Source: Nitrospirota bacterium (GTDB lineage Bacteria > Nitrospirota > Nitrospiria > JACQBZ01). From it: a stretch of 56,559 bases of DNA. Shown in pieces: positions 39,767 to 50,894 of this stretch. The notes under the pieces are model-generated. The model was not told the origin of the DNA. It was given only the letters and a program-made list of their open reading frames with translations, and did not search any database. Positions within the stretch are counted from its first letter, which is position 1; the number at the start of each line of letters is the position of its first letter. Position numbers and translations under genes: made by a program. The stretch covers positions 1 to 56,559 of the forward strand of contig JACQCA010000065.1 in the NCBI GenBank assembly GCA_016201865.1. Reading direction: 5' to 3'.

Positions 39767-40111
39767 TTGAAGAAGATCGAAGCGTATATTCGCGCGGAAA
39801 AACTCGGCGAGGTGAAGGAAGCCCTGATCCAGCTCGGTGTTCAGGGAATGACGATCATGGAGGTCCGGGGCTTCGGCCGCCAGCGAGGCCGTATTGAGGT
39901 GTACCAGGGCGCCGAGTATGTCCTGGACTTCGTCCCGAAGATGAAGATCGAGATTTTCGTTCCGGCTGAAGACGCGCCACGGGTCGTCGAGGCGTTGTCG
40001 AAGGCGGCTGCGACCGGGCGGGCGGGCGATGGAAAAATCTTCGTGCTGCCGGTCGAGGAGGCTGTCCGCATCCAAACCCGGGAACGCGGTCGGGCCGCCG
40101 TTTCGATGTGA
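39767..40111 (+). CDS. glnB: PII nitrogen regulatory protein, GlnK/GlnB type (copy 1)
   Basis: 114 residues from a TTG start after [27 protein letters not shown], the T-loop [15 protein letters not shown] with the uridylylated Tyr near 51, and the end [20 protein letters not shown] identify PII. It signals 2-oxoglutarate, ATP/ADP and glutamine status. It lies behind a terminator-bearing leader and 13 bases before a NifA-like activator, whose activity PII proteins often modulate. Confidence 0.93.
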
Positions 40112-40124
40112 GCGACGGGGTCGG

Positions 40125-41690
40125 ATGGATACGCAGAACACGCCCCGCAAGATCGCAGAGCTGACGGCTCTCTACGAGATCAGCCGCGCGCTGGCCTCGT
40201 CGTTGGACGTCAAGGAAACGTCGCGTCGGATTCTCGAGATCCTGTCGTCCGTTCTCGAGATGCGCCGCGGAACCTTGACCCTGCTCGATCCCGAGACGGG
40301 GGAGCTGGTCATCGAGACGGCCTACGGCCTGACGCCGGAGGAGATCGCCCGGGGGCGATTCAAGATCGGCGAAGGGGTGACCGGCCGCGTCTTTGAGAAA
40401 GGGGAGCCGATGATCGTGCCGGATGTGGGGCGCGAGCCGCTGTTCTTAAACCGGACGCGCTCGCGGGGCGACCTCGCGAAGGAGCGGATCGCGTTTCTCT
40501 GCATGCCGGTCAAGATCCACGGCGAGACGATCGGGGTCTTGAGCGTCGACCGCCTGTTTAAAAACGGCTCACCCGACTTCGACGACGACGTCCGCGTTCT
40601 GACCGTCGTCACTTCGTTGATCGGGCAGGCCGTCAAACTTCAACAGACCGTCTCGCGCGAAAAACGCGAGCTGGTGGCCCAAAACGTTCAACTCCAGAGC
40701 GAATTGAAGAACCGTTACCGGATCGGGAACATCGTCGGTCAAAGCAAGATCATGGATGAGGTGTTTCGAGCCGTTCTCCAGGTCTGCAAGTCGAAGGCCA
40801 CGGTGCTGCTCCGGGGGGAGTCCGGGACGGGCAAGGAATTGATCGCGCGGGCGATCCATTACAACAGTCCCCGGGCCGAGCGGCCGTTCATCAAGGTCAA
40901 TTGCGCAGCGCTGCCCGAGACGCTGCTCGAGAGCGAGCTGTTCGGGCACGAGCGCGGGGCCTTTACGGGCGCGACGCAGCTTCGGAAAGGACGCTTCGAG
41001 CTGGCCGACGGCGGGACGCTTTTCCTCGATGAAATCGGCGACATTCCCCTTGCGACGCAGGTCAAGCTTCTCCGCGTGCTCCAGGAACAGCGGTTCGAAC
41101 GCGTTGGCGGCTCTCAGGTCCTGTCGGTGGACGTCCGGTTGGTGGCCGCGACCCACCGCAACCTCGAGGCCGCGATCGAGGAGGGGACGTTTCGCGAGGA
41201 CCTGTATTACCGGCTGAATGTCGTTCCGGTCTTTCTTCCATCGCTGCGGGAGCGGAAAGAGGACATTCCGCTGTTGATCGAATATTTCCTGTCCCGTTGC
41301 AACAAAGAGCATCGCAAACAGGTCCGGATCGCGCCGGATGTCCTCAACGTCATGGTTCGGTACCATTGGCCGGGGAACGTGCGTGAATTGGAAAACTGCA
41401 TCGAGCGGATGGTCGTCCTGGCCGAATCGGACCTGATCGCTTTCCAGTCCATGCCGTCCAGCATTGTGACCTACTTTCAGGATGTCCGGGAAGTGACCGC
41501 TCCGGCCATGGACGAAAAACCGACGCTTCGGACGACGGTGGAACACCTGGAGCGGGATCGGATGATCGAGGCCTTGAAGAAATGCGGCTGGGTCCAGTCG
41601 CGCGCGGCCAAGATGCTGGGCATCACGCCGCGTCAAGTCGGATACAAGATGAAAAAGTACAAGATTGCATTACGCCCGCCGGATTTGTAG
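40125..41690 (+). CDS. nifA: NifA-like sigma-54 activator (GAF-AAA+-Fis)
   Basis: 521 residues from ATG 40125. GAF domain about 12-178; AAA+ domain about 200-430 with Walker A GESGTGKE (231-238), the sigma-54 contact loop GAFTGA (279-284) and Walker [11 protein letters not shown]-terminal [23 protein letters not shown], very close to that of NifA. The cysteine-rich interdomain linker of oxygen-sensitive proteobacterial NifA is not seen. A canonical TGT-N10-ACA site overlaps its own stop codon, about 108 bp upstream of a sigma-54 promoter for the next operon. It likely controls nitrate assimilation here rather than, or as well as, nitrogen fixation. Confidence 0.88.
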
Positions 41691-41808: not shown

Positions 41809-41824
41809 TGGCATGAAGGTTGCT
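41809..41824 (+). promoter_or_regulatory. Sigma-54 promoter of the nitrate/nitrite assimilation operon
   Basis: TGGCATGAAGGTTGCT, with GG and GC separated by exactly 10 bases; only minor deviations from TGGCAC-N5-TTGCW. Predicted start about 41835. It overlaps an ATG at 41813, which therefore cannot be the translation start of the next gene. Confidence 0.88.
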
Positions 41825-41851: not shown

Positions 41852-42481
41852 ATGCAACGAGAAGGCATCAAGCCCCCGAATTTCGCGAATCAGTTTGCCC
41901 GGATTGATTTTGAAGCCGAGCCGCTTCCGGTGCTCTGCATGTATCCCATCCCGGAACCGGTGGCGTTGGAGTCGTTAACGATCAGTGTCTGCGGGCTGGA
42001 TGCGAAGCCGAGATTCGTATCCTGGGCGTCGCTCGAAAATCTTCCGCGAGTCCGGATGCGCGTGCCGATCATCTGCCAGATCTTCAACTGGTCTGAAGAA
42101 GTGGAATGGGAAGGGATAAAATTGGCGGATTTCCTGAATCATGTCGGGCTCGAAACCGGTCCGGACGGCTACTGCTCATTCTATTCACGCGACGGCCATT
42201 ACTTCGAGACGCTTTCCTCGGATGAGGTCCGAGACGATCGGGTCTTGTTCGCCTACGGTCTCAACGGTTCGCCGTTGCCGTCGGAATATGGGGGGCCGCT
42301 CCGCTTGGTCGTGCCGTTTCTTCAGGGCTACAAGAGCGTCAAGTGGGTTCGGGCGGTCCGGGTCTTCAGGCGGGATCCCGTCGGGATTAAAAGGCTTCGC
42401 GGCCAGAGCCGTTCGGCCGAACTGAGCGAGGAATGGCGGAAGAAATACGGGATTGAGAATCCGCCGAACCATAAATCATGA
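41852..42481 (+). CDS. Cytoplasmic sulfite-oxidase-family molybdopterin protein, candidate nitrate reductase
   Basis: 209 residues from ATG 41852 (MQREGIKPPNFANQ). It consists of the oxidoreductase molybdopterin-binding domain of the SUOX/YedY superfamily. The molybdenum-ligand cysteine is in RVPIICQIFNWSEEVEWEGI (about residue 75), and GGPLRLVVPFLQGYKSVKWV is the conserved cofactor-binding segment. There is no Tat signal, unlike YedY/MsrP, and no haem or dimerisation domain, so it should be cytoplasmic. First gene of a sigma-54 operon followed by nitrite reductase and a nitrate transporter. Eukaryotic assimilatory nitrate reductase uses this Mo-domain family, so a nitrate-reducing role is a reasonable but untested inference; sulfite or another oxyanion is possible. 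Confidence 0.82.
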   Translation: MQREGIKPPNFANQFARIDFEAEPLPVLCMYPIPEPVALESLTISVCGLDAKPRFVSWASLENLPRVRMRVPIICQIFNWSEEVEWEGIKLADFLNHVGLETGPDGYCSFYSRDGHYFETLSSDEVRDDRVLFAYGLNGSPLPSEYGGPLRLVVPFLQGYKSVKWVRAVRVFRRDPVGIKRLRGQSRSAELSEEWRKKYGIENPPNHKS

Positions 42482-45400
42482 ACCGTGAACCCATGCGTCT
42501 CATCGTCATCGGCAACGGCATGGCCGGAGCGGCCGCGATCGAAGAGATCGTCAAAAAATCATCCCGACCGGCCATCACCGTCTTCGGCGGCGAACCGCAT
42601 GTCAACTATAACCGCATTTTGCTTTCGGACGTTCTGGCCTGCGCCAAGTCCTTTAATGAGATTTACCTGAACAGCCGGGCATGGTATGAAGAGCACGGGA
42701 TCCAATTACGAACGGGGACTTTTGTGACTCGAATCGATCCCGATCAAAAGAAGGTGTTCACCCAAGACGGTCGGGAGCACGGCTATGATCGGCTTCTGAT
42801 CGCCACCGGCAGCGTCCCGTTTATCCCGCCGATCAAGGGCCTGGACCGGAAGGGCGTTTTTACCTTTCGGAATATCGACGACACCGAGTCGATGATCCGG
42901 TGGGCGGCCGATCATTACCGCGCCGTTGTGGTCGGCGGCGGACTGTTGGGACTGGAGGCGGCCCGCGGACTGACCCATCGGGGAATGGCGGTGACGGTGG
43001 TCCATCTCATGAATCATTTAATGGAGCAACAGTTGGATGAGCGGGCGGGAGCGATCTTAAGAACCGAGATCGAAAAGATGGGGATCGCCGTGCGTCTCGG
43101 CTGCACGGTGGAAGAGATCCTCGGAGACAAAAAAGCGGAGTCCGTCCGTCTCACGACGGGAGAGATGATGGAGGCCGATCTCGTTCTGATCACGGCCGGA
43201 ATCCGGCCAAACGGAGGACTGGCCCGGGAGGCCGGGCTTGCCGTGAACCGAGGAATCCTTGTGGACGATTCGATGCAGACGAGCCGGCCGGATGTCTATG
43301 CCGTTGGAGAATGCATCGAGCATCGCGGAAGGACGTATGGGCTCGTCGGACCGATCTTGGAACAGGCGAAGGTCGCGGCCGATTCGATTGCGGGTGAAGG
43401 AACACAGGTTTATCGCGGATCGGTCCCCTCCACCACGCTGAAGGTCGCCGGGATCCATCTGACCTCGATGGGCGACCACCAGGGGAAGGAAAAAGAGTCC
43501 GAAGAACTGGTCTATATGGATGCGGCCATGGCGGTTTATAAGAAACTCGTCATCCGGAACAAACGCGTGGTCGGGGCGATCTTTTTGGGGGATGACGATG
43601 GAAGTCGTGAAGTCCGGGAGATGATCCAAACCAGCCGGGATATCTCGGCGGAACGCTCTCGTCTGCTTTCCGGAAAAGAGGATCCGAAAAAGGCGGATGA
43701 TCCGGCCGCCTGGCCGGACGCGGCGCTTGTTTGCAACTGTAATACCGTTACAAAGGGCGAGATCGTCGGCGCGATCCGTGAAAAGAATTGTAAAACACGC
43801 GAACAGATCGCAGGATGCACAAGAGCGACGACAGGCTGCGGCACCTGTGCGCCGCTCGTCGAGCAGATCCTTGAGTCGGTTCTGGAAGAGCCGTCCGATG
43901 GGGTTGCCGTAGCGGCTCGAAAACCCAAGGCGGTTTCCACGTCGACGAACAAGATCGAGGAATGGAAGAGGGAGAAAGACGGCCTGGATATCCAAGACGA
44001 TCTGGTTCGGTATGCAAAGGAAGGCTGGGAGAAGATCACCGAGGGAGATATACAACGGCTTAAATGGCACGGGCTGTTTCTCCGGACCCCCACGCCCGGT
44101 TATTTCATGATCCGCGTCCGGATCCCCAACGGCATTGCTCGGGCCGCGCAATTCCGCGCCTTCGCCGAGATCTCGAAGCGATTCGGCAAGGGGTTCGCCG
44201 ACATTACGACGCGCCAGCAGATTCAGTTGCGAGATATCCGAATTGAACATGTTCCGGCGATTTTTGAGATGCTGGCCTCGGCCGGCCTCACCAGTCTTCA
44301 GACCGGGATGGACAGCATCCGAAATGTCATGGGCTGCCCCGTAACGGGCCTGTCTCCGACCGAGCTGATCGACACGGCCGCGGTGGTTAAACAATTCACC
44401 GGTCTTTTTATCGGTAATCGGGAATATACCAATCTGCCTCGCAAGTTCAATGTGACCGTCACGGGGTGCCGTGAAAACTGCACCCATGCCGAAAGCCAGG
44501 ATATCGCACTGATCCCGGCCACGAAAGAGATCGACGGACAAATCAGCGCCGGTTTTAATGTCCTGGTCGGAGGCAAGACAGGCTCCGGAGGATTCCGGGC
44601 CGCGAGCCCATTGGATGTTTTTGTGCGGCCGGACGAGGCGGCCGAGATCTTAAGTCGGATCACGCTGATCTATCGTGACCATGGGCCGCGCGAGAATCGG
44701 ACCAAGGCCCGGTTGGCCTTTCTTCTCGATGAATGGGGAGCGGCGCGTTTCCGAAAAGAGTTGGAAAATCGCATGGGTCGGCCCCTCGCGCGTTCAGGAA
44801 AGGATGAACGGGATCTAAAAAAGAAAGCAGACCATATCGGAGTATACAGACAGAAACAGCCGGGGCTGAACTACGTCGGGCTGACGGTGCCGGTGGGCAG
44901 GATCACAACGGATCGGTTGGCCGAGACGGCGCGGCTTTCGGAGGAATACGGCGCGGGCGAGATCCGATTAACCGGCGGCCAGAATCTGATCCTTCCCAAC
45001 ATTCCGGATCGCGTGTTGGGAAAACTGATCCAGGAGGAGCCTCTCCTGAAAGAACTCAAGTACAACCCCTCCGAGATCATGAGGGGCTTGGTGAGCTGCA
45101 CCGGCATCGAATACTGCGGCCTGGCTCTGATCGAGACCAAGAATCGCGCGCTTGAAATCGCTCGGCGATTGGAACAACAGGTCGCAAGCACAAAACCGGT
45201 CGGGATCCATTGGTCGGGGTGCCCCGCCGGCTGCGGCAATCACCTTCTCTCGGACATCGGCCTTTTAGGAAAACGGGCCAAGCTGACAAAGGCGGACGGC
45301 TCGACGGAGGTGGTGGATGCGGTGGATATCTTTGTCGGCGGCCGCGGCGGGGTGAAAGCCCAAGCCGGGATCAAGATGTTGGAGGACGTGCCGTGCGACC

Positions 45401-45555
45401 AATTGCCGGACGTGCTGAAAGGGCTGGTCCGCTATGTGGCGCGCGACAAAGCGGTCGAGGTGATGAAGGGTGAGATGATATCCTTGACGACGTTTGCAAA
45501 CCTCAAGTCGGTTCAACAGGAGACGGATACCATCTCTAAGGGAATGAAGGAATGA
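42478..45555 (+). CDS. nirB: NirB-NirA fusion: NAD(P)H-type siroheme nitrite reductase
   Basis: 1025 residues. Residues 1 to about 400 are the FAD/NAD(P)H module of NirB/NasB (IVIGNGMAGAAAIEEI, VVVGGGLLGLEAARGL). A BFD-like [2Fe-2S] domain has C419, C421, C454 and C457. Residues about 505-1025 are a complete NirA-type reductase with two half-repeats (RLKWHGLFLRTPTPGYFMIR onward); its siroheme-[4Fe-4S] ligands are C874 and C880 (CTGIEYC) and C915 and C919 (GCPAGC). Ordinary NirB is shorter and carries a different reductase arrangement, so this looks like NirB electron input joined to a ferredoxin-type NirA. It reduces nitrite to ammonium. It overlaps its neighbours by 4 bases at both ends; the start could also be ATG 42493. 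Confidence 0.92.
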   Translation: MNREPMRLIVIGNGMAGAAAIEEIVKKSSRPAITVFGGEPHVNYNRILLSDVLACAKSFNEIYLNSRAWYEEHGIQLRTGTFVTRIDPDQKKVFTQDGREHGYDRLLIATGSVPFIPPIKGLDRKGVFTFRNIDDTESMIRWAADHYRAVVVGGGLLGLEAARGLTHRGMAVTVVHLMNHLMEQQLDERAGAILRTEIEKMGIAVRLGCTVEEILGDKKAESVRLTTGEMMEADLVLITAGIRPNGGLAREAGLAVNRGILVDDSMQTSRPDVYAVGECIEHRGRTYGLVGPILEQAKVAADSIAGEGTQVYRGSVPSTTLKVAGIHLTSMGDHQGKEKESEELVYMDAAMAVYKKLVIRNKRVVGAIFLGDDDGSREVREMIQTSRDISAERSRLLSGKEDPKKADDPAAWPDAALVCNCNTVTKGEIVGAIREKNCKTREQIAGCTRATTGCGTCAPLVEQILESVLEEPSDGVAVAARKPKAVSTSTNKIEEWKREKDGLDIQDDLVRYAKEGWEKITEGDIQRLKWHGLFLRTPTPGYFMIRVRIPNGIARAAQFRAFAEISKRFGKGFADITTRQQIQLRDIRIEHVPAIFEMLASAGLTSLQTGMDSIRNVMGCPVTGLSPTELIDTAAVVKQFTGLFIGNREYTNLPRKFNVTVTGCRENCTHAESQDIALIPATKEIDGQISAGFNVLVGGKTGSGGFRAASPLDVFVRPDEAAEILSRITLIYRDHGPRENRTKARLAFLLDEWGAARFRKELENRMGRPLARSGKDERDLKKKADHIGVYRQKQPGLNYVGLTVPVGRITTDRLAETARLSEEYGAGEIRLTGGQNLILPNIPDRVLGKLIQEEPLLKELKYNPSEIMRGLVSCTGIEYCGLALIETKNRALEIARRLEQQVASTKPVGIHWSGCPAGCGNHLLSDIGLLGKRAKLTKADGSTEVVDAVDIFVGGRGGVKAQAGIKMLEDVPCDQLPDVLKGLVRYVARDKAVEVMKGEMISLTTFANLKSVQQETDTISKGMKE

Positions 45556-45899
45556 AGGAGATTATTGCCGTCATCCGTCCCCATCAGGCACTGGCCACAC
45601 GAAAGGCGCTGGAGGAGATCGGGATCACCGCTTACACGACGTTTCGCGTACTGGGGCGCAGCCGTCAGGGCGGCCTGCGTTATCCGAGGAAATTGTTCAG
45701 GCGTTCGGCCGACATCCGATTTCTTCCCAAGCGGCTGTTCGAGGTTGTGGTGGACGATTATCAAGTCGAAGCGGCGGTGTCCGCCATTATCAAAGTCAAC
45801 CAAACCGGAAGGATCGGCGACGGCAAGCTCTTTATATTGCCTGTTTCGGAAGTTTGCGCCATTCGAACCGGTGAACGCGATAAGGAGTCATTGCGATGA
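45552..45899 (+). CDS. nifI2: PII-family protein of the NifI2 type
   Basis: 115 residues. The T-loop region is not the YRGAEY type; it reads VLGRSRQGGLRYPRKLF followed by IRFLPKRLFEVVVDD, and the end IIKVNQTGRIGDGKLFILP matches the NifI2 class. NifI1 and NifI2 act as a pair that inhibits nitrogenase in archaea and anaerobic bacteria and normally lie beside nifH. Here it lies between a nitrite reductase and a nitrate transporter with ATGA overlaps on both sides. No GlnD-type uridylylation tyrosine is present in the loop. Confidence 0.82.
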   Translation: MKEIIAVIRPHQALATRKALEEIGITAYTTFRVLGRSRQGGLRYPRKLFRRSADIRFLPKRLFEVVVDDYQVEAAVSAIIKVNQTGRIGDGKLFILPVSEVCAIRTGERDKESLR

Positions 45900-46213
45900 A
45901 GCTGATCAAAGCGATTCTCAGACCTGAACGGGAAAGCGACGTCATTCAGGCGCTCGAGAAAGAAGGTCTGTACGCGATGACTAAGGTGGATGTGCTGGGC
46001 CGGGGACGACAGAAGGGCATTCAGGTCGGTGAAGTGACCTACGATGAGCTGGCCAAGCTGATGCTGATGATCATCGTGGAAGATCAGGACTCCGACCGCG
46101 CCGTGGAGGCCGTTCGAAAAGCGGCCTATACCGGCCATTTCGGCGATGGGAAAATCTTTGTCCAGTCGGTTGAGCAGGTCTATACGATACGGACCGGGGA
46201 GACAAAGCTATGA
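45896..46213 (+). CDS. nifI1: PII-family protein of the NifI1 type
   Basis: 105 residues, [20 protein letters not shown] with the diagnostic short T-loop [20 protein letters not shown] followed by [12 protein letters not shown], and the end [20 protein letters not shown]. This is a strong NifI1 pattern. It overlaps nifI2 and narK by 4 bases each, so the stoichiometry is probably coupled. Together with NifI2 it may form a 2-oxoglutarate-responsive complex; the likely partner here is the nitrite reductase or the transporter (inference). Confidence 0.86.
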
Positions 46214-47463
46214 AATTCATAAAGGCGATCAAGAGCGGCCATCCCGGTTCCCTGTTCTCGGCCTTTCTCTATTTTGATGTCAGTTTCATGGTATGGGTCA
46301 TTCTGGGGCCGTTGGCGGTTTATATCACCCAAGACTTGGGTTTGTCATCGACGCAGAAAGGGCTGTTAGTGGCTGTCCCCATTTTAGGCGGGGCCCTTTT
46401 AAGGATCCCCATGGGAATCCTGACCGACCGGATCGGGCCGCGGAGGACGGGACTGGCCGGGCTTTTGTTGACACTGATTCCTCTAATATGGGGCTGGCTT
46501 TTTGCCGACGCATTGACCGAAGTGATCGTCACGGGCCTGCTGTTGGGTGTGGCCGGCGCAAGTTTCGCCGTGGCCCTTCCCATGGCGAGTCGGTGGTATC
46601 CTGCTGAGCACCAGGGCATCGCCATGGGCATTGCCGGCGCGGGAAATAGCGGTACGGTCTTAACGATGCTTATGGCCCCGCGTCTTGCCGAGCATACAGG
46701 CTGGCATGGGGTTTTAGGGCTGGCTATGATACCGATCCTGATCACTTTCGGGCTTTTTTTCTTGATGGCCAAGGAAAGTCCGAGCCAACCCGCGCCTCGG
46801 CCGCTGCGAGATTATCTATCCCCGTTCAAGAATGAAGATGCTTGGTGGTTTAATTTTTTCTACAGCGTGACCTTCGGCGGTTTTGTAGGTCTGGCCTCTT
46901 TTTTGGTGATCTTTTTCCATGATCAATACGGGCTGTCAAAGGTGATGGCCGGAAATTTTGCGGCGGCCTGCGTCTTTGCCGGCAGTTTCTTCCGGCCGGT
47001 CGGGGGATACCTATCGGATCGGTTCGGGGGCGTCCGTGTCCTTACGGGGCTGTATGTCTGTGTTGGAATTATGATGTTGGGTATAAGCCTTCTGCCGTCA
47101 CTGGCCGTTGTGACGGTCTTGCTTTTCCTGGGGATGATGGGGCTTGGGATGGGCAACGGTTCGGTTTTCCAGATCGTTCCGAAGCGGTTTGGAAATGAGA
47201 TCGGTGTAGTGACCGGAATGGTCGGGGCGGCCGGCGGATTTGGAGGTTTCCTCCTCCCGACGATTCTCGGGTCCTTGAAAGACTTCACCGGTTCCTTTAG
47301 AGCCGGCTTTTTACTATTTGGATTAATAGGGTTTTTATCTTCAGCGCTTCTCCAATCCATTTATCAAAAATCGTGGCGTCGTACCTGGTTGGTCACGGCG
47401 AAACCATCGGCGGGATTATCAACCAGCGGTCGGGTCGCGATGGAGGTTGTGTTCGGTGGGTAA
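46210..47463 (+). CDS. narK: NarK/NasA-family nitrate/nitrite transporter
   Basis: 417 residues, 12 hydrophobic helices, major facilitator superfamily. Nitrate-porter features: the [20 protein letters not shown] helix, the MFS motif DRIGPRRTG, and the nitrate signature [15 protein letters not shown]. It imports nitrate (or exchanges nitrate and nitrite) across the inner membrane, feeding the two reductases encoded upstream. Translationally coupled to nifI1 (ATGA). Its 3' end overlaps the next small gene by 8 bases. Confidence 0.94.
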
Positions 47464-47683
47464 AGGGTTGAGAGAACAGGTGGAGGGCCTTGAGCGGCGG
47501 CTGATCGTTGATGCCCTGCACAGGGCCCATGGTGTTCAGTCGCGCGCGGCGAAGTCATTAGGGATCAGCGAACGGGTCTTGCGCTACAAGATTAAAAAAT
47601 ATGAGCTTCAAATATCGACGAAATTGTCGGGGCGTGACAGAATTGTCGAATTTTCTATTTCTCCTAAAAAGACGAACGGTTAG
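47456..47683 (+). CDS. Orphan Fis-type DNA-binding protein, NifA C-terminal-like
   Basis: 75 residues from GTG 47456 (GGAGG nine bases upstream). [20 protein letters not shown] followed by [20 protein letters not shown] is the DNA-binding domain of a NifA/NtrC activator with no GAF or AAA+ part. It could be a stand-alone regulator competing for the same sites as the NifA-like protein, or the remnant of a duplicated activator. The recognition helix differs from that at 40125. Two copies of the shared operator word lie in its own 3' end (47617-47647). Confidence 0.78.
47617..47647 (+). promoter_or_regulatory. Paired operator-like sites upstream of the porin-amt-glnK promoter
   Basis: GACGAAATTGTC (47617-47628) and GACAGAATTGTC (47636-47647), 19 bases apart. 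The composite TGT-N9-ACA-N4-TGT (47625-47646) parallels TGT-N10-ACA-N4-TGT at 41686. They lie about 185-210 bp upstream of the -24 element, inside the end of the Fis-type gene. Confidence 0.6.
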
Positions 47684-47727: not shown

Positions 47728-47829
47728 AAATATACCGGGACACAGTTCGATGAAAGTTTTTTGATTTAAACAGATATAACGTGTTAAATAGAAAAGGTAT
47801 TTAAAGAACCACTTATTCTGAAGAATAAT

Positions 47830-47845
47830 GGCATTGATCTTGCTT
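47830..47845 (+). promoter_or_regulatory. Sigma-54 promoter of the porin-amt-glnK operon
   Basis: TGGCATTGATCTTGCT, with GG and GC 10 bases apart, the same TGGCAT...TTGCT pattern as at 41809. Predicted start about 47856, giving a ~117-base leader with a GGATAC-GATGTC-GTATCC hairpin at 47870-47887. Confidence 0.9.
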
Positions 47846-49135: not shown

Positions 49136-50527
49136 ATGAGAATCCAATGGATTAAAAGCAGGTTATTAGGTGCCCTGCTGCTTCTGGTTGCGATCACTCT
49201 CACTCCCGGGCTCAGCCAGGCCCAGGGGGAGGCTGTTCCTCCTGCAACGACAGAAGCAGCAGGCGCCCCAACGGCGCCGCCGGCGGCTCCGGCGCCAAAA
49301 GTAGACACCGGGGATACGGCCTGGGTGCTCACCTCCTCGGCCTTGGTTCTGGCCATGACCGCTCCCGGTCTGGTGCTGTTCTACGGCGGGATGGTGCGTC
49401 GGAAAAACGCTCTCGGAACCATGATGCACAGTTTCATCATCCTCTGTCTGATCAGCGTCCAGTGGGTGCTGTATGGATATTCCCTGGCCTTCGGACCGGA
49501 CAAAGGTCATATCATCGGAGGGCTCGAATGGCTGGGTTTAAACGGGGTGGGGTTGGATCCCAACGCGGATTACGCCGGGACGATTCCGCATCAGGCCTTC
49601 ATGATTTTCCAGGCGATGTTTGCCGTGATCACGCCGGCCCTCATCGTCGGGGCTTTTGCCGAACGCATCAAGTTCAGCGCTTTTTTGGTCTTTACGCTGC
49701 TTTGGGCCACGTTTGTATATGATCCTCTGGCCCACTGGGTGTGGGGAGTGGGTGGATGGCTCCGGAATCTTGGCGCACTCGATTTTGCCGGTGGGACGGT
49801 CGTGCATATCAGTGCGGGAGTATCAGGCCTGGCCTGTGCTCTATATTTCGGCAAGCGTCTGGGGTATGGACGTGAGACCATGGCTCCTCATAATATGCCG
49901 TTGGTCGTAACAGGAGCGAGCCTGCTTTGGTTCGGCTGGTTCGGGTTCAATGCCGGCAGTGCCGTGGCCTCCGGCGCGCTGGCGACCAGTGCCTTTGTGG
50001 TGACCAATACAGCCACCGCCGCCGCCGCTCTATCCTGGATGTTTGCGGAATGGGCTCATCGGGGAAAACCGACTGTATTTGGCGCGGCCAGCGGCGCGGT
50101 GGCGGGTCTGGTAGCCATCACACCGGCCTCAGGCTTTGTGGGACCGATCTCTTCGATCTGGATCGGGATCGGCGCCGGCGTCTTCTGTTATTTTGCAGCG
50201 GTCATTCTTAAAGGGAAATTGGGATATGACGACTCGCTCGATGCTTTTGGAGTTCACGGCATTGGCGGGACCTGGGGGGCGCTTGCCACGGGTCTCTTTG
50301 CCTCGAAGGCCATCAACTCGGGCGGCAACGACGGTCTGTTCTTCGGCAACCCCGGCCAGCTCATCCCCCAGATCACGGCCGTCGCGGCCTCGTGGATTTT
50401 AGCCCTGGTCGGAACCTTTGTTATCCTAAAGGTTGTTGATATAATCATGGGCCTGAGGGTGACGGAAGAGGAAGAGCGGATGGGGCTGGATTTGAGCCAG
50501 CACAACGAAAGCGGATATGTTCTTTGA
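49136..50527 (+). CDS. amt: Ammonium transporter Amt
   Basis: 463 residues. A cleavable signal peptide (LLGALLLLVAITLTPGLSQA) precedes an Ala/Pro-rich linker and 11 membrane helices, as in many bacterial AmtB. Landmarks: APGLVLFYGGMVRRKNALG, the Amt signature DFAGGTVVHISAGVSGLACA, the twin pore histidines in AFGVHGIGGTWG and the cytoplasmic tail. 26 bases after the porin and 28 before glnK, its usual regulatory partner. Confidence 0.97.
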   Translation: MRIQWIKSRLLGALLLLVAITLTPGLSQAQGEAVPPATTEAAGAPTAPPAAPAPKVDTGDTAWVLTSSALVLAMTAPGLVLFYGGMVRRKNALGTMMHSFIILCLISVQWVLYGYSLAFGPDKGHIIGGLEWLGLNGVGLDPNADYAGTIPHQAFMIFQAMFAVITPALIVGAFAERIKFSAFLVFTLLWATFVYDPLAHWVWGVGGWLRNLGALDFAGGTVVHISAGVSGLACALYFGKRLGYGRETMAPHNMPLVVTGASLLWFGWFGFNAGSAVASGALATSAFVVTNTATAAAALSWMFAEWAHRGKPTVFGAASGAVAGLVAITPASGFVGPISSIWIGIGAGVFCYFAAVILKGKLGYDDSLDAFGVHGIGGTWGALATGLFASKAINSGGNDGLFFGNPGQLIPQITAVAASWILALVGTFVILKVVDIIMGLRVTEEEERMGLDLSQHNESGYVL

Positions 50528-50540
50528 AATTTGTCTTTAA

Positions 50541-50894
<354 letters not shown>

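Follow-up and report, generated by a model that had tools for sequence, protein, structure and literature searches.

A NifI-class PII pair in a nitrate-assimilation operon of a Nitrospirota bacterium and its candidate molybdoprotein target

The window, which is the whole stretch of DNA analysed here (56,559 nucleotides from a Nitrospirota genome, G000), carries two adjacent PII genes of the NifI class within a nitrate-assimilation operon. We lean towards the reading that a NifI1/NifI2 sensor was re-aimed from nitrogenase to nitrate assimilation, with a SUOX-fold molybdoprotein from the same operon as its first target. The observations behind this reading are the NifI class of the two proteins, the absence of nifH from the genome, the conservation of the operon, gene fusions in related genomes, sigma-54 sites and preserved ligand residues. 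Control of the nitrate-assimilation pathway by the NifI pair is likely; the chances that the SUOX protein is its exact target are about even.

The operon and the class of its PII proteins

The operon consists of five coupled genes, which are linked by ATGA four-base overlaps at the SUOX/NirBA, NirBA/NifI2, NifI2/NifI1 and NifI1/NarK junctions. The first-pass annotation had placed a pair of NifI2 and NifI1 reading frames at 45552-46213, coupled by ATGA between a nitrite reductase and a nitrate transporter; the frames, the motifs quoted for them and the overlaps with NirBA and NarK are all present. It overlooked gene 1 of the operon, SUOX (41852-42481), which adds a candidate target, while NirBA and NarK stay among the possible ones. 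The features of the region are as follows.

39767..40111, + strand: GlnB-clade PII adjoining the NifA-like activator (GlnB/GlnK clade 100/96)
40125..41690, + strand: NifA-like sigma-54 activator (GAF-AAA-Fis), located 5' of the operon (TIGR01817, 606 bits vs a cut-off of 529)
41809..41824, + strand: putative sigma-54 (-24/-12) promoter TGGCATGAAGGTTGCT, an exact match to TGGCAYN5TTGCW, 27 nt 5' of the SUOX start codon
41852..42481, + strand: SUOX-fold molybdopterin oxidoreductase (PF00174, 95.5 bits), operon gene 1, with Cys75 of the Mo-ligand type
42478..45555, + strand: NirBA, 1025 aa, an N-terminal NirB part (FAD/NADH, BFD 2Fe-2S) fused to a NirA-type ferredoxin-nitrite reductase (TIGR02374, PRK09566, Pfam domains)
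45552..45899, + strand: NifI2-class PII, 115 aa, nitrate-operon clade (tree, PDB match, ligand columns)
45896..46213, + strand: NifI1-class PII, 105 aa, nitrate-operon clade NifI1a (tree, PDB match, ligand columns)
46210..47463, + strand: NarK-type nitrate/nitrite MFS transporter (TIGR00886, 301.6 bits, slightly below the cut-off of 311.7)
47447..47683, + strand: stand-alone Fis-type HTH protein, 78 aa, overlapping the narK end (PF02954, 53 bits)
47829..47844, + strand: second exact sigma-54 site, 5' of porin-Amt-GlnB-GlnD-GlnA genes
49136..50894, + strand: Amt ammonium transporter (TIGR00836, 475 bits) and its GlnB/GlnK (50556-50894, GlnB/GlnK clade), the ordinary PII system of this genome

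A stand-alone Fis-type HTH gene after narK is also kept in two other loci (L044, L045).

Exact sigma-54 sites occur twice in the window, where 0.04 are expected. Of 27 related operons, 16 have an upstream match to at least 10 of the 11 consensus positions, compared to 0.35% of shuffled upstream sequences. Because the second exact site precedes the porin-Amt-GlnB-GlnD-GlnA genes, two nitrogen operons of the window look sigma-54 driven.

Both proteins of the pair score above the Pfam cut-off for PII (77.8 and 95.0 bits). Both have their best PDB match in 9p1x, a nitrogenase-inhibitor structure, NifI1 with a clear lead (chain 9p1x_H, 119.7 bits vs 75 bits for the runner-up) and NifI2 by a small margin (chain 9p1x_G, 85.3 vs 81.6 bits). 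This entry comprises 12 NifI1, 6 NifI2, 6 NifD and 6 NifK chains, which gives a NifI1:NifI2 ratio of 12:6. Our main tree contains 61 PII proteins including E. coli GlnB and GlnK, the nifI pair from a Nitratidesulfovibrio plasmid and the nif-linked pairs of the phylum; a larger PII tree has 132 rows. The 61-protein tree resolves a NifI1 clade (100/99), a NifI2 clade (95/92) and a GlnB/GlnK clade (100/96). The window pair falls inside the two NifI clades together with nif-linked NifI proteins and outside GlnB/GlnK, and the nitrate-operon proteins form subclades of their own (97/87 within NifI1 and 99/94 within NifI2). The earlier assignment of the pair to NifI rather than GlnB is thus confirmed by the phylogeny with reference sequences and by the match to 9p1x.

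According to the alignment columns the effector-site residues Q39, K58, G87, G89 and K90 are kept in both proteins, and NifI2 also keeps GDGK. Tyr51 is absent from both, so uridylylation by GlnD at this site is not expected. NifI1 has a short T-loop and carries Thr in place of Arg101 at GlnB position 101. A GlnB/GlnK identity of the pair is ruled out by the tree, in which the GlnB/GlnK clade (100/96) excludes both proteins, by the PDB search and by the missing Tyr51. The genome has other PII proteins as well. Two bona fide GlnB/GlnK genes (39767 and 50556, both in the GlnB/GlnK clade) lie near the operon. A fifth PII (G000:C69:3065-3421, - strand, L138) adjoins an AcrB/CusA-type RND efflux pump and sits on a long tree branch; we take it to resemble the PII-NG group.

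The first-pass annotation saw no nitrogenase in the window, which holds, and the search for nifH in the whole genome, which is 95% complete, was negative too: the PF00142 matches reach only 30 bits at best and TIGR01287 gave 0 matches at E<=1e-80. A nitrogenase elsewhere in the genome was rejected, as no NifH was found. Since the genome lacks nifH and the operon is one of nitrate assimilation, the pair, judged from its sequence, is NifI by descent and would have no role as nitrogenase regulator here.

The NifI2-NifI1 nitrate module in other genomes

In a search of 396 genomes of the phylum and a scan of GTDB contigs we found about 27 non-redundant loci with adjacent NifI2 and NifI1. Among these, narK is present in 25, NirBA or NirA in 23 and SUOX in 22. 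The commonest gene order is SUOX-NifI2-NifI1a-NarK-NirBA-NifI1b, and the order in the family of the window is SUOX-NirBA-NifI2-NifI1-NarK. By record titles the module occurs in Nitrospirota, Leptospirillum, Manganitrophus, Troglogloeales, Lindowbacteria, an Acidobacteria MAG and a Euryarchaeota-labelled MAG; these taxon labels are derived from MAG names and may include binning errors. Many unrelated assemblies contain the block, which rules out a chance neighbourhood or an assembly artefact.

A second NifI1 paralogue (NifI1b clade, 100/94) follows NirBA in about 11 loci, e.g. L050:13816-14136 and L057:5782-6180, and the operons of many relatives contain two NifI1 genes per NifI2. These gene numbers and the 12:6 chains in 9p1x suggest that NifI1a, NifI1b and NifI2 may each occupy one place of a trimer. 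NifI1a lies immediately 5' of narK in most loci; in L056, NirBA follows NifI1a and narK is found further on. Two loci of the family f2, to which Nitrospira-type genomes belong (L055, L058), encode a fused SUOX-NifI2 with NifI1, NarK and NirA, and the NirB half is absent. In G273 (L047:3752-8473, - strand) one reading frame of 1574 aa within a NifI2-NifI1-NarK operon combines a NasA-type molybdopterin reductase with NirB/nitrite reductase domains.

SUOX genes are found with NirA or NirBA but without NifI in L087, L088 and L092, in L089 (labelled Thaumarchaeota) and in the Dehalococcoidia loci L097, L103 and L104. The link between SUOX and nitrite reductase therefore reaches wider than the NifI switch, as L089, L097, L103 and L104 combine SUOX and NirA without NifI.

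Only three of the 17 module-bearing genomes of the phylum contain nifH (G019, G066, G082), and these three carry an extra nif-type NifI1 besides the nitrate module. That the NifI pair is a functionless remainder of a lost nif cluster is very improbable. Such an origin would agree with the Leptospirillum-family genomes (f22), relatives which hold nif and the nitrate-type NifI operon together, and with the decaying copy in G233, a genome from the same family as the window. In the G233 operon NifI1 was not found, and its NifI2, located between NirBA and NarK (L132:8709-9089), has GHGK instead of GDGK and has lost RTGE. However, this sole decayed copy also lacks an adjoining NifI1, as would be expected if the two proteins function only as a pair. 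The ligand motifs are largely intact in the other loci, and the separate well-supported clades, the fusion to SUOX and the four-base overlaps likewise argue against a relic.

The SUOX-fold protein as candidate target and candidate enzyme

In the SUOX protein of the window one Pfam domain was found, Oxidored_molyb (PF00174, 95.5 bits), without the dimer, heme and flavin domains of eukaryotic nitrate reductase. All 28 of the 28 homologues compared share the Cys at the position of the Mo ligand. Profile searches match sulfite oxidases and MsrP, and weakly yeast nitrate reductase. The AF2 model (pLDDT 85.7) has sulfite oxidases, MsrP and yeast nitrate reductase as top PDB folds (Foldseek E 3e-10 to sulfite oxidase), and the pterin-binding regulator PruR was matched as well.

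In 15 loci SUOX and NifI2 form a single unbroken reading frame, with NifI2 at the C terminus of SUOX; in the window NirBA separates the two genes. The AF2 model of the fusion (pLDDT 67, pTM 0.47) is too weak for domain contacts. We regard these fusions as the strongest pointer to the target of the pair, and because NifI2 is fused to SUOX in relatives, the SUOX protein would be the first choice among the candidates. The first-pass annotation proposed that NifI-type control had moved to nitrite reduction or nitrate uptake. The pathway is supported by the conserved module in many genomes; the named targets give way to SUOX, which is NifI2-fused in 15 relatives and leads.

Two other proteins of the operon could be bound instead. 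The SUOX fusion might merely anchor the sensor, while NifI1 would bind NarK at nitrogen sufficiency and the pair would gate the entry of nitrate and nitrite. We consider this unlikely. The frequent position of NifI1a directly 5' of narK and the presence of narK in more NifI loci than SUOX (25 of 27) speak for it, as does the PII control of nitrate uptake known from cyanobacteria (PMC6603209). On the other hand, it is NirBA that follows NifI1a in L056, the fusion partner of NifI2 is a soluble molybdoprotein and not a transporter, and the NifI1 T-loop is short. Binding of the pair to NirBA, by which nitrite reduction would be controlled, is in our judgement quite unlikely. In its favour, NirBA or NirA is found more constantly than any other enzyme of the operon, most loci with the NifI1b paralogue have it immediately behind NirBA, and the NifI switch persists without SUOX in L047, L048 and L053; yet no fusion of NifI with NirBA was seen among the loci, and the Nitrospira-family loci L055 and L058 keep the NifI pair although the NirB half is missing. 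It is possible that SUOX is not the sole target, as five genomes with a NifI pair have no SUOX.

The catalytic role of the SUOX protein was addressed by the distribution of known molybdoenzymes. In the five SUOX-less NifI-pair genomes (G131, G273, G139, G241, G185) a NasA-type protein is present in every case, and in three of them it adjoins the operon or is fused within it. Of 12 SUOX genomes only one has a close NasA, and three or four others have more distant PF00384 proteins. Fisher tests of this mutual exclusion give p values of 0.001 to 0.04, uncorrected for phylogeny and weaker if the distant PF00384 proteins are counted as NasA. Several SUOX genomes, that of the window included, have no known nitrate reductase. 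For the genome of the window this was concluded from PF00384 and xanthine-oxidase-family searches: a DMSO-family nitrate reductase elsewhere is ruled out, as the two PF00384 proteins are of the NuoG type, and no xanthine-oxidase-family enzyme was found. NuoG-type in appearance are also the sole PF00384 proteins of G255 and G019 and both of those in G157. The genome of the window contains six further PF00174 proteins besides the operon SUOX. G019 has no PF00174 protein other than the SUOX-NifI2 fusion, and PF02738 gave no match there. The fusion is the sole protein found from the three Mo-enzyme families searched, and moaA adjoins the operon.

From this context and substitution pattern, the SUOX protein is a candidate assimilatory nitrate reductase, for which we see a little less than an even chance. 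Manganitrophus enrichments grow when 1 mM nitrate supplies their nitrogen (PMC9040806), which was observed in enrichments and not in pure cultures. Kin of these enrichments carry the operon (L105).

A rather unlikely alternative is an operon for the assimilation of nitrite only, in which the SUOX protein would serve as a regulatory subunit that senses pterin or Moco, or as a repair enzyme of the MsrP kind. NarK proteins also transport nitrite, and nitrite assimilation alone would therefore account for NarK and NirBA. The minimal Moco domain standing alone, the match of the fold search to PruR and the alignment of the Cys loop with that of MsrP/YedY (CVEAWSMVVPW) point in this direction. Against a protein of this kind are the invariant Cys at the Mo-ligand position, the NasA in every NifI-pair genome without SUOX, the situation in G019, where the fusion is the sole Mo-enzyme candidate found and moaA is adjacent, and the tie to NirA even in loci without NifI (L089, L097, L103, L104). 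On inspection by eye, moreover, the SUOX protein shows no apparent signal peptide and in this differs from MsrP.

Proposed switch and comparison with known systems

In Methanococcus a mixed trimer of NifI1 and NifI2 binds nitrogenase and stops it when 2-oxoglutarate is low. For the operon of the window we propose that under nitrogen shortage sigma-54, probably with the adjacent NifA-like activator, would turn on SUOX-NirBA-NifI2-NifI1-NarK. NarK would import nitrate, the SUOX protein, as candidate nitrate reductase, would yield nitrite, and NirBA would form ammonium. NifI1 and NifI2 would assemble to a mixed PII trimer reading 2-oxoglutarate and ATP/ADP; when ammonium rises and 2-oxoglutarate falls, the trimer would bind the enzyme and stop it immediately, as NifI1,2 does with nitrogenase. 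The hetero-trimer, the direction of control and the enzyme bound are what we infer from the analysis.

In its furthest form, which we put forward tentatively and hold to be somewhat short of probable, the proposal would be a new prokaryotic assimilatory nitrate reductase of the SUOX family with a single Moco domain, often fused to NifI2. NifI1, or NifI1a and NifI1b, would join it as a 2:1 PII trimer and switch it off within moments of ammonium. NifI would then be an off-switch that can be moved between costly nitrogen enzymes, and not a nitrogenase accessory.

So far NifI1 and NifI2 have been treated as nitrogenase regulators, and the nitrate module suggests that a PII switch can acquire a new target. 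Nitrogenase and the nitrate enzyme offer a natural comparison for the question which residues select the NifI target. Should nitrate reduction by the SUOX protein prove real, this would close the gap in genomes with NarK and NirBA and without a recognised nitrate reductase. These include Leptospirillum-family and groundwater Nitrospirota, in which nitrate use would then be under-annotated. In a literature search, with most subscription journals outside its coverage, we met neither NifI genes within a nitrate operon nor a fusion of SUOX with PII.

If it is a nitrate reductase, the SUOX protein would represent a new kind of enzyme among prokaryotes. It shares the fold of the Moco domain and the Cys with MsrP/YedY, SorA/SoxC and eukaryotic nitrate reductase, but differs from the sulfite oxidase family by its lone Moco domain, the lack of an apparent signal peptide, its place in a nitrate operon and its frequent fusion to NifI2. 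Eukaryotic nitrate reductase, regarded as a fusion of eukaryotic origin (PMC6400420), combines dimer, cytochrome b5 and FAD/NAD domains, whereas PF00174 was the only domain found in the SUOX protein. In f5 genomes NasA/NarB of the DMSO reductase family occurs in the same operon with NifI2-NifI1-NarK, in one case (L047) as a fusion with NirB. Its fold is unrelated to that of SUOX, and no such enzyme was found in the genome of the window.

The NifI1/NifI2 (GlnBi) proteins of methanogens, Desulfovibrio and clostridia are like the window pair in their PII classes, the short NifI1 T-loop, the missing Tyr51, their adjacency and the ligand residues. In methanogens the NifI genes always lie inside the nitrogenase operon (PMC8395244). 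The window pair differs in being ordered NifI2-NifI1, in its location in a nitrate operon without nifHDK and in its own clades; relatives of the window operon add the NifI1b paralogue and the fusion of NifI2 with a molybdoprotein.

GlnK blocks AmtB, and the GlnK-AmtB and cyanobacterial PII systems resemble the proposed one in that a PII protein controls the uptake of nitrogen in response to 2-oxoglutarate and ATP/ADP (PMC6603209). Both belong to the GlnB/GlnK clade, whereas the window pair belongs to the NifI clades and stands beside ordinary GlnB/GlnK proteins. The nearest precedent is the cyanobacterial PII control of nitrate uptake (PMC6603209), which relies on a different PII class.
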